NCBI RefSeq assembly: GCF_012863495.1 | Contig: NZ_JAAVJL010000001.1 | Location: 3,343,501-3,407,500, forward strand | Direction: 5' to 3' | Source: Pseudanabaena yagii GIHE-NHR1 | GTDB lineage: Bacteria > Cyanobacteriota > Cyanobacteriia > Pseudanabaenales > Pseudanabaenaceae | Length of the DNA stretch: 64,000 nucleotides | Shown: piece by piece, positions 1,759-61,860 of the stretch | Layout of the letters: each line of letters opens with the position of its first letter | How positions within the stretch are numbered: position 1 is the stretch's first letter | The notes under the pieces: generated by a model | The model's input: only the letters and a program-made list of their open reading frames with translations | Told to the model about the DNA's origin: nothing | Databases searched by the model: none | Translations under genes and position numbers: made by a program

Positions 1759-2005
1759 CTTAGTTAAGACAAAACTAAGTGGTGATGGTTCAGACAAGAC
1801 CATGCTTACTACTAGCTAGTCAGCCTAGTATTAATGTAGCTTGATATCGGGCGAATTCAAGCGGTGATGGAGTCGATAAAATCCATACTTTTTACTAGTT
1901 GAGTCCAAATGCATCTATAAATCTTTATCTGTCTAGTAATTACGTAACTTAACTTTGACGAAGTTAAGTGGTGATGGTACTGGGTAAAACCATGCTAATT
2001 ACTAC
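1759..2005 (+). repeat. Three tandem copies of an RNA-like stem motif upstream of the CTERM protein gene
   Basis: Three units (1759-1812, 1839-1896, 1948-2005) share one architecture. First comes an AT-rich hairpin (for example CTTAGTT/AACTAAG, CTTGA/TCAAG, CTTAACTT/AAGTTAAG). It is directly followed by GGTGATGG, a variable 11-14-nt loop, CCAT and a TTACTA block. GGTG-ATGG can pair with CCAT-bulge-TTACTA(C), leaving a bulge on the 3' side. Arms vary while pairing is kept, which suggests RNA structure rather than a DNA-binding repeat. The last unit ends about 80 bp before the ATG at 2084. I do not recognise it as a known riboswitch. Confidence 0.6.
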
Positions 2006-2846: not shown

Positions 2847-3986
2847 ATGCAATCATTACAGATAGGTACAAGCTGGTTCCCAGAAGAAGCAGGTGGCTTA
2901 GCTCGCGTTTATTATGGCTGTATGAACTATTTACCACAGGTTGGGGTTGAAGTAAGTGGTTTAGTGGTCGGTTCTGAGCGTGTTTGGTTTAGTTCAGGAC
3001 AAAAAGTGAGGTCATTTGCTCCGCCTGATAGTTCGACTTGGAGGCGATCGCTAAATCTCCGTAAAGCTGTTCATCAGACATTAGCAAGCGCTAAATTTGA
3101 TTTGGTTGCCTCACATTTTGCTCTATATACTTTTCCTGCCCTAGATTGTTTAGGCGATTTACCTTTAGTGATGCACTTTCATGGACCTTGGGCTTTAGAA
3201 AGTCAAGCTGAGGGTGCAGGCAGGTTATCGGTTTGGGGGAAATGGGCAATTGAGAAGCTTGTTTATCAAAGGGCAAATGGATTTATTGTTTTGTCGGAGT
3301 CATTTCGGCAGATTTTGCATCAAACTTATCATGTGCCGCTAGATAAAATTTTTATTGTGGGGGGTGGCATCAATACGACGGAATTTGATCTGGATTTATC
3401 GATCGCCCAAGCTAGGGAAAAATTAGGATGGCGACAGGATCGGCGGATTCTGCTTTGTGTCAGGCGATTAGTGAAGCGGATGGGGTTAGAGAATTTGATC
3501 GTAGCGATCGCTATAGTACGCCAGCAATTTCCTGATGTGTTGCTATTGATTGCTGGTAAAGGGGCGATCTCAGAAACATTGCGATCGCAAATTCAGGAAT
3601 TACAACTGGAAGATCATGTGCAGTTATTGGGGTTTGTGAGTGATCAGGATTTAGCGATCGCCTATCGTGCAGCAGAGTTGAGCATTGTGCCAACAGTCAC
3701 GTTGGAAGGATTTGGATTAACTGTAATTGAATCTTTGGCAACGGGAACACCTGTTCTCGGAACCCCTATCGGCGGTATTCCTGAAATCTTACAGCCCTTA
3801 AATCGCAACTTGATTTTAGAAGGTAGTAGTTCTGAGCAATTAGCCCAAGGCATTATCGAAGCATTGTCAGGACAAAGGCAAATTCCTACAGCAGCAGCTT
3901 GCCAAACCTATATCAAGCAAAACTACGATTGGCAGGTAATTGCTCAACAAATGAAATCAGTTTATGAGCAAGTTATTCAATCATAA
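2847..3986 (+). CDS. Family 4 glycosyltransferase
   Basis: A 379-residue GT-B fold enzyme. The N-terminal half has a PEEAGGLARVYYG loop, the acceptor side. The C-terminal half has the nucleotide-sugar site with LLIAGKG, the loop LLGFVSDQDLAIAYRAAEL and the GT4 E-x7-E signature in EGFGLTVIESLATGTPV. It probably transfers a sugar onto a cell-surface or exopolysaccharide precursor; donor and acceptor cannot be told. It follows the CTERM gene but is separated from it by a terminator, and ends convergent with the NB-ARC/WD40 gene. Confidence 0.85.
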   Translation: MQSLQIGTSWFPEEAGGLARVYYGCMNYLPQVGVEVSGLVVGSERVWFSSGQKVRSFAPPDSSTWRRSLNLRKAVHQTLASAKFDLVASHFALYTFPALDCLGDLPLVMHFHGPWALESQAEGAGRLSVWGKWAIEKLVYQRANGFIVLSESFRQILHQTYHVPLDKIFIVGGGINTTEFDLDLSIAQAREKLGWRQDRRILLCVRRLVKRMGLENLIVAIAIVRQQFPDVLLLIAGKGAISETLRSQIQELQLEDHVQLLGFVSDQDLAIAYRAAELSIVPTVTLEGFGLTVIESLATGTPVLGTPIGGIPEILQPLNRNLILEGSSSEQLAQGIIEALSGQRQIPTAAACQTYIKQNYDWQVIAQQMKSVYEQVIQS

Positions 3987-4005
3987 TTCACTGCGCTTCC
4001 CGCCT

Positions 4006-4076
4006 AAACCAGAGGCAAGAAATTTTTTAAAAGTTTGGCTTTGCCAAACTTTTAAAAAATTTCTTGCCTCTGGTTT
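4006..4076. repeat. Perfect 34-bp inverted repeat with 3-nt loop
   Basis: AAACCAGAGGCAAG at 4006 begins an arm of 34 bases that is repeated exactly, inverted, after a TTT spacer and ends at 4076. It lies between the convergent glycosyltransferase and NB-ARC/WD40 genes, so it probably acts as a terminator in both directions. It is the most perfect member of a family of intergenic palindromes in this window. Confidence 0.8.
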
Positions 4077-4080
4077 GCTT

Positions 4081-4130
4081 GATCGAAAATTAAAAGTCTT
4101 GCTTAGCAAGGCTTTTAATTTTCTTCGATC
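4081..4130. terminator. Second palindrome, containing the stop codon of the NB-ARC/WD40 gene
   Basis: GATCGAAAATTAAAAGTCTTGC, a TTA apex and the nearly exact reverse complement (one mismatch, one 2-nt bulge). The TAA stop of the leftward gene (4117-4115) is inside the right arm. The CTTGC/GCAAG core recurs in the hairpins at 11769 and 15836. Confidence 0.7.
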
Positions 4131-61272: not shown

Positions 61273-61860
61273 TTGAGATTTGACTCTAGCGATCGCTTTT
61301 TTGATGAATGGTTAAATAATGCACCGACTCTAACCGAAGCGGAACTACAAGTATTAGAGCGCCTCACCCGCAACTATACCTATCTCAGTCAAGAAGAACC
61401 ACCTCTCGAAGAAATTGTTAAGCTTGTCGTAGTATCTCCATTGCTAGATTTGGCTGGGTTCTATCAGTTTCCATTTTTGGTAAAAGCAGAAGTAAGTACT
61501 AATATCGAAGTTGCGGACGAAGCTAATGCTATGGCGGTTCAAGGCAGAATTGATATTTTGGTAATCCAAGATAGTTTTTGGATTTTGGTAATCGAATCAA
61601 AACCTGCAAGGATAGATGTTACGGCAGGAATTCCCCAAGCACTTACTTATTTGCTGAGCGCTCCCAATTTACAGCCAAGTTGCTATGGAATGGTTACAAA
61701 TGGAAGAGAAGTATTGTTTTTAAAATGCGATCACCACCAAAATGCCCCTCAATATACGAGATCGCCTACTTATAGGTTACTTGAAAATACAGCAGAACGT
61801 ATCCAAGTTTTGCAGGGGCTTAAACAAATTGGGTCTTATATTGGTGATTTGAGGAGTTAA
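61273..61860 (+). CDS. Remaining 3' part of the PD-(D/E)XK gene
   Basis: A 195-codon frame that could restart at TTG 61273 after the IS630 insertion. It keeps VVVSPLLDLAGFYQFPFLVK, GRIDILVIQDSFWILVIESK and PQALTYLL, so the catalytic core is whole and only about a dozen N-terminal residues are lost. Expression would need the IS to supply a promoter. Counted as part of the split gene at 60098. Confidence 0.6.
   Translation: MRFDSSDRFFDEWLNNAPTLTEAELQVLERLTRNYTYLSQEEPPLEEIVKLVVVSPLLDLAGFYQFPFLVKAEVSTNIEVADEANAMAVQGRIDILVIQDSFWILVIESKPARIDVTAGIPQALTYLLSAPNLQPSCYGMVTNGREVLFLKCDHHQNAPQYTRSPTYRLLENTAERIQVLQGLKQIGSYIGDLRS

Follow-up and report, generated by a model that had tools for sequence, protein, structure and literature searches.

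A gene for a CTERM-type surface protein in the window (the whole 64,000-nucleotide stretch of DNA that was analysed) is preceded by three tandem copies of a ~75-nt element that is almost certainly a structured cis-acting RNA, and these copies belong to a strongly covarying family of cis-regulatory RNAs that appears to be undescribed. Every copy has the fold of a three-way junction in which the helix P1 encloses two hairpins, P2 and P3. The cores of the units, GGTGATGG, are on the + strand at 1781, 1863 and 1970. A first-pass annotation made from the sequence had described three tandem copies of a two-stem motif at 1759-2005. All three copies are present on the + strand and the units do lie there, but their true extents are about 1743-1817, 1824-1900 and 1932-2007, and the two stems are replaced by a three-way junction, in which the TTACTA string is the P1 3' strand and has its partner upstream of P2. 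The units and the gene are as follows; the P1 sides in this parse are fixed 14-nt stretches that are partly unpaired.

1743-1817, + strand: RNA unit 1, parsed, matched by covariance models R1 and R2 (P1 5' side 1743-1756; J1/2 A 1757; P2 hairpin 1758-1780; GGUG 1781-1784; P3 1785-1803; P1 3' side 1804-1817)
1824-1900, + strand: RNA unit 2, parsed, matched by R1 and R2 (P1 5' side 1824-1837; A 1838; P2 1839-1862; GGUG 1863-1866; P3 1867-1886; P1 3' side 1887-1900)
1932-2007, + strand: RNA unit 3, parsed, the genome's best model match (R1 5.0e-24; R2 1.4e-20) (P1 5' side 1932-1945; A 1946; P2 1947-1969; GGUG 1970-1973; P3 1974-1993; P1 3' side 1994-2007)
2084-2734, + strand: CTERM-type surface-protein gene, 216 aa

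The pattern GGTGATGGN{6,20}CCATN{2,6}TTACT was matched three times in the window and was not matched in 100 dinucleotide shuffles. A looser pattern was found at four places in the whole genome, namely the three window units and L001. L001 was rejected as a chance match and has no R1 match at E ≤ 1. A weak match within the window at 61695-61796 (E 0.0058) was also attributed to chance, with no R2 match there at E ≤ 0.1. An inverted-repeat component was observed within the tandem repetition of the units.

The strands that join the helices at the junction are short and fixed, with a single A between P1 and P2, GGUG between P2 and P3, and 0 nt between P3 and the P1 3' side. In the unit alignment P2 starts with R-C and ends with G-Y, and P3 has the form RUGR/YCAY and a loop in which one A is constant. 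The unpaired A, the GGUG and the P3-loop A were invariant in 19 units by plain alignment and in the larger set of 24 units, an invariance that is somewhat favoured, since the units were found by GGTG-holding patterns and models and the parser required an A before P2. The invariant unpaired positions number only about six. The pairs bordering the junction, on which its strand lengths depend, were also kept, the innermost pair of P1 in 24/24 units, the first pair of P2 in 24/24 and the first pair of P3 in 23/24.

Covariation across the 24 units was considerable, with a score of 0.472 compared to 0.268 when shuffled (0/500), and changes on both sides were seen in 19/24 pairs (1/500). Cells of the alignment were paired at 81.4%, compared to 32-44% with the partners slid, a comparison in which the structure is favoured over its slid versions as it was drawn from one member sequence. 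By helix, the paired cells were 97.9 and 91.7% for P2, 93.3% for P3 and just 66.3% for the outer part of P1, because this outer part is bulged. When helix arms were swapped between units, the native pairing was stronger than the swapped pairing for P1 (-8.10 versus -3.70 kcal/mol), for P2 (-7.84 versus -3.69 kcal/mol) and for P3 (-3.45 versus -2.74 kcal/mol), with 0/20000 swaps as good for each helix. The P2 figure is favoured, since the P2 boundary was picked by native folding, and the P1 figure was not picked on P1 pairing; the sequences compared are not independent events. The same result was obtained when three near-duplicate units were left out (21/24 kept). As a control for lineage, arms were swapped within genomes: native P1 and native P2 came top in 6/6 multi-unit genomes, and in the window genome each beat all five other arm assignments, in keeping with the first-pass observation that the stems differ between units while their pairing is kept. 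P3, which hardly varies within genomes, was sole first in 1/6 genomes and last in G007. The compensatory changes back one fold, strongly for P1 and P2 and weakly for P3, and the covariation found in P1 and P2 bears out the earlier suggestion of selection on RNA structure. At fixed stem positions we counted 32 G·U and 3 A·C combinations, which indicates that the element is an RNA on the coding strand. Minus-strand energies were weaker for P1 in 19/24 units and for P2 in 20/24, and no strand preference was detected for P3 (7 versus 6).

The three-way junction was the minimum-energy fold in only 6/24 units; in 21/24 it lay at most 2.2 kcal/mol above the best fold, P3 being the weak part. Alone, P3 is marginal, with a pair probability below 0.15 in 12/24 units. 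Taken by themselves, window units 1-3 did not fold strikingly better than shuffled sequences (z -0.91, -0.70 and -2.35). The pairing proposed in the first-pass annotation, GGTGAT with TTACTA, beats P1 in window unit 1 (-8.3 versus -6.9 kcal/mol) and in window unit 3 (-8.9 versus -7.5 kcal/mol). It was also somewhat stronger with native than with shuffled P1 3' strands (mean -4.49 versus -3.37, lower in 17/24). P1 was the stronger duplex in 18/24 units and GGTGAT/TTACTA in 6/24, and the two-stem model was therefore rejected as the general fold. In units 1 and 3, the GGTGAT-TTACTA pairing might represent an alternative state. Kissing of the P2 and P3 loops was considered and dismissed, by eye only.

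Searches with the protein and with sequence patterns located the element before homologues within the genus. To follow it further in relatives, as the first-pass annotation had proposed, the covariance models R1 (19 units, alignment A2) and R2 (24 units, alignment A4) were run on 38 family genomes. R1 identified 24 units in 14/38 genomes at E ≤ 1e-4, 12 of them among the 26 genomes of the genus and two in a second genus, g7, so that covarying units were recovered upstream of CTERM-type genes in 14 genomes of the family. Five of these units lay outside the R1 seed and were found by the model: three belong to G024, one to G036 and one to G031. R2 recovered the same 14 genomes and a weak match in G012 (E 0.069), which was attributed to chance. 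The number of copies ranged from one to three (one unit in 8 genomes, two in 2 and three in 4); three copies before one gene, as first described, thus holds for the window and is not general. In the 4/4 three-unit genomes the spacing of units 1 and 2 was 80-82 nt and the second spacing 107 to 131. The units occupied one locus in each of the 14 genomes at E ≤ 1e-4, and the same was found with R2. Several dispersed copies, as scattered mobile repeats would give, were not found in these genomes with either model.

A number of further matches were rejected. Five family genomes had only matches at E 0.04-0.9 (G022, G023, G025, G026 and G034), which were attributed to chance; that of G034, the one locus inspected, lies inside a reading frame. 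The second matches of G031 and G036 were also set aside as chance. No convincing match outside the family was obtained from a class sample of 388 genomes or a phylum sample of 386, which overlap, include family members and were searched with strict filters. Matches at E ≤ 0.01 were present in 18 genomes of the class sample and 5 of the phylum sample, of which 4 and 2, respectively, were outside the family (E 0.001-0.004). In the four non-family genomes of the class sample the matches lie inside reading frames and were taken as chance. The three matches in the two non-family genomes of the phylum sample were judged by eye to be chance, one locus lying in a pentapeptide-repeat-type frame and the other having weak similarity only.

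A CTERM-type gene follows the units in the same orientation in 14/14 genomes, as the first-pass annotation had stated for the window, where the gene starts at 2084. One of these genes, in G014, is broken, and both RNA units are retained there. At this locus (L041, about 3540-4090 on its minus strand), the gene has a changed start codon and an internal stop. In 12/12 genus genomes the units are followed by the CTERM-type gene and then by the same glycosyltransferase. In the two g7 genomes the units precede a CTERM-type gene at another locus, adjoining a long reading frame, which suggests that the element is tied to the CTERM gene and not merely to the place. We take this long reading frame to be glyS.

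The CTERM protein was detected in 11/23 genus genomes searched and in 0/15 others, and the 11 are exactly the RNA carriers among the 23. Eight of the 14 RNA-less genus genomes keep the glycosyltransferase and the adjoining ferredoxin-like gene. In these 8/8 genomes the intervening stretch is 306-641 nt, too short for the leader and the gene together, and no R1 or R2 match at E ≤ 0.01 was found in them. The leader and the gene are absent together in the 8/8 relatives examined at the locus. A feature at the level of DNA, such as recurring binding sites for a protein, or a repeat that is mobile or palindromic, could account for the tandem repetition and its inverted-repeat component. This explanation is strongly disfavoured and we consider it very improbable, given the excess of G·U over A·C (32 versus 3), the weaker minus-strand energies of P1 and P2, the single locus per genome at E ≤ 1e-4, the constant orientation with the gene (14/14) and the joint absence of units and gene.

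The 216-aa protein encoded in the window has a signal-peptide-like start, a DUF4114-like region (21.7 bits, compared to a cut-off of 27), the tail VPVPAIVPG, a hydrophobic stretch and a basic end. Two kinds of ectodomain were observed behind the common leader, a DUF4114-like kind and the Npun_F0296 exosortase-dependent domain (NF050191). The former was supported by weak matches in 8/8 members of A5 (E ≤ 0.1). NF050191 matched 3/4 members of A6, above the cut-off for G007, and the fourth A6 member, the window protein, had no NCBIfam match. The general CTERM models gave, for the eight DUF4114-like proteins, E values of 0.44 or weaker (TIGR02595) and 0.19 or weaker (NF050011). At the same locus in G007, G015, G004, G021 and G002, the Npun_F0296-type ectodomain replaces the DUF4114-like one; those of G004 and G002 were assigned by likeness to G015 and G021, without a domain scan. 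The Pro-rich tail VPxPxxxPG is common to both kinds of protein. From the sequences, it is as if the surface part of the CTERM protein had been exchanged while the leader units, the tail and the neighbours were kept. Prediction of the CTERM protein structure from one sequence gave a mean pLDDT of 35.6 and was not used, and a sequence profile of the protein searched against solved structures had a best E of only 0.12.

With its Pro-rich motif, hydrophobic stretch and basic tail, in a genome that encodes an exosortase, the protein resembles an exosortase substrate. Exosortase PF09721 was present in 12/12 genus genomes with the RNA and 4/14 without it, and outside the genus in 2/2 genomes with the RNA and 5/10 without it, a link that is an association only, among related genomes. 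By score, the PF09721 matches form two grades, one at about 1e-26 and a better one at about 1e-30 or stronger. The better grade was seen in all 12 RNA-bearing genus genomes and, among the 14 others, only in G009 (5e-30).

The units are predicted to sit in a ~500-nt 5' leader transcribed from an upstream promoter. Its features are as follows.

1488-1514, + strand: three ATAAC direct repeats with 11-bp spacing, upstream of the predicted promoter
1565-1576, + strand: predicted promoter -10-like box, TGTATTATACAT; a like box was matched in 7/14 genomes
1582-1608, + strand: predicted 5'-terminal hairpin with loop GUAGGAA, pairing read by eye
2009-2074, + strand: hairpin separating unit 3 from the AUG, folded, with GTCAATTAGAT / ATCTAAATTGAT as its outer stem

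The loop sequence GTAGGAA is present in 8/14 genomes and lies 28-31 nt after the -10-like box in the 6 genomes that have both; by eye, the stem of this hairpin appears to covary. A second leader hairpin was observed at 1687-1726 (TCTAAGT/ACTTAGA) with ATAGGGC in its loop, and by eye it is similar in G003 and G014. At least three ATAAC copies, including one or more pairs spaced by 10-11 bp, were found in 12/12 genus genomes with the RNA, and the arrangement was absent from the 560 nt scanned in the two g7 genomes. The repeats resemble a response-regulator site of the OmpR/Pho-box type. Only one other exact ATAAC-repeat site was seen in the genome, at the non-coding position G000:C3:333947, near genes that we take to be of polysaccharide type. 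Similar ATAAC repeats also stand before two other CTERM-type genes that lack the RNA (L049 and L050).

At the other end of the leader, 78-97 nt separate the final unit's P1 3' side from the start codon in 12/12 genus genomes; in this comparison the start codon of G036 is misplaced (8 nt), and both g7 genomes are outside the 12. The outer stem of the hairpin before the AUG also folds in G003, G014, G001 and G018, and arm swaps gave it weak support (1293/20000). From this folding, the hairpin at 2009-2074 is a possible expression platform. A competing helix, in which the P1 3' strand of the last unit would pair with the pre-AUG region, was rejected, since its native pairing was no better than swapped pairing (-3.10 versus -3.28; 14019/20000 as good), and no switching mechanism was thereby found.

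The first-pass annotation had recognised no known riboswitch class in the units, and comparison with Rfam 15 agreed: no matches were obtained at gathering scores in the window or in 11 related loci, and none at E ≤ 5 in 1480-2100. A string like GGNGAUGG is a feature in common with the crcB (fluoride) riboswitch (RF01734); the units have no Rfam match to it, and they differ from it in forming a three-way junction and preceding a CTERM-type gene. Riboswitch aptamers are known as tandem doublets and triplets, according to passages of PMC9481103. The glutamine riboswitch glnA (RF01739) is similarly a cyanobacterial leader RNA that is often in tandem, with four triplets listed (passages of PMC2864571 and PMC9481103). 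It differs in that a CTERM-type gene lies downstream here rather than a nitrogen gene and in that no Rfam match was found here at E ≤ 5. The c-di-GMP-I and c-di-GMP-II riboswitches also form doublets and triplets, a likeness in the way of working only, and the majority of c-di-GMP-II tandems have a surface-anchor gene downstream (both from passages of PMC9481103). The window units have no Rfam match to these classes. The small A/GGUG/0 junction also appears to differ from the c-di-GMP-I and c-di-GMP-II cores. The pan motif likewise occurs as tandem cis-acting copies that precede a single type of operon (passages of PMC2864571). In contrast to the units, which have no Rfam match to it, pan has just one stem, from which two A residues bulge, and serves other genes. 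In the open-access text searched, no report of a riboswitch with exosortase or PEP-CTERM was found and no description of the element, including in the passages of PMC2864571, PMC9481103, PMC12188702 and PMC6316151 that were covered; a subscription paper could describe it.

The units are probably a dedicated control for the surface protein. Most likely, they are stacked cis-acting control modules of a ligand-sensing, riboswitch-like kind. We put the chance that every unit binds a small ligand or ion, with the stack making the response sharper, only slightly above even; this guess is based on the constancy of the junction lengths and of the unpaired A/GGUG/A, on the marginal stability of P3 and on the tandem habit of riboswitches. 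P3 is marginal alone and its pairing is nonetheless kept (93.3%), as expected if something stabilises it. In such a mechanism, one to three head-to-tail junctions of ~75 nt in the 5' leader of the CTERM-type mRNA would each act as a small receptor, in which the invariant A, GGUG and P3-loop A would form a binding site at the junction. An occupied site would make P3 and P1 more stable, and this stabilisation may, via the hairpin just before the AUG, alter translation or transcription; several copies would give a steeper response. The pairing of the GGUGAU core with the P1 3' strand in some units could be the unbound state. Against ligand binding, the regulated gene offers no metabolic clue, the invariant unpaired positions are few for a metabolite pocket, and a range of one bacterial family is narrow for a riboswitch class. 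The stronger proposal, that the units form a new class of riboswitch whose minimal A/GGUG/0-nt aptamer stacks up to three times for digital on/off control of exosortase-dependent surface proteins in cyanobacteria, is tentative, with a chance somewhat short of even.

The small number of invariant unpaired bases is also what would be expected of the main rival explanation, in which the units are tandem sites where a protein binds the mRNA and so represses or protects it, with the GGUG junction as the recognition element. The variation in copy number from 1 to 3, the failure to find an expression platform and the tandem pan motif, which in passages of PMC2864571 is taken as a hint of dimeric protein binding, are consistent with such sites. 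The whole junction is, however, kept in every unit with fixed lengths of 1, 4 and 0 nt, in place of a simple hairpin, and we regard this explanation as unlikely, if still a serious one. The long predicted leader, with several hairpins including the predicted 5'-terminal one, would also suit an element for mRNA stability or processing (a nuclease barrier or cleavage sites) or a source of small RNA, acting without sensing. An invariant A/GGUG junction would be superfluous in a stem that serves stability alone, whereas this junction is unvarying in the 24 units (to which the bias of the search applies), and an element of this kind is improbable.

Together, these results make the units a candidate for RNA-based control of a surface protein sorted by exosortase. 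The ~75-nt size of the units, their tandem stacking and their association with one gene make this candidate directly testable, and the ligand, if there is one, could reveal the signal that controls this part of the cell surface.
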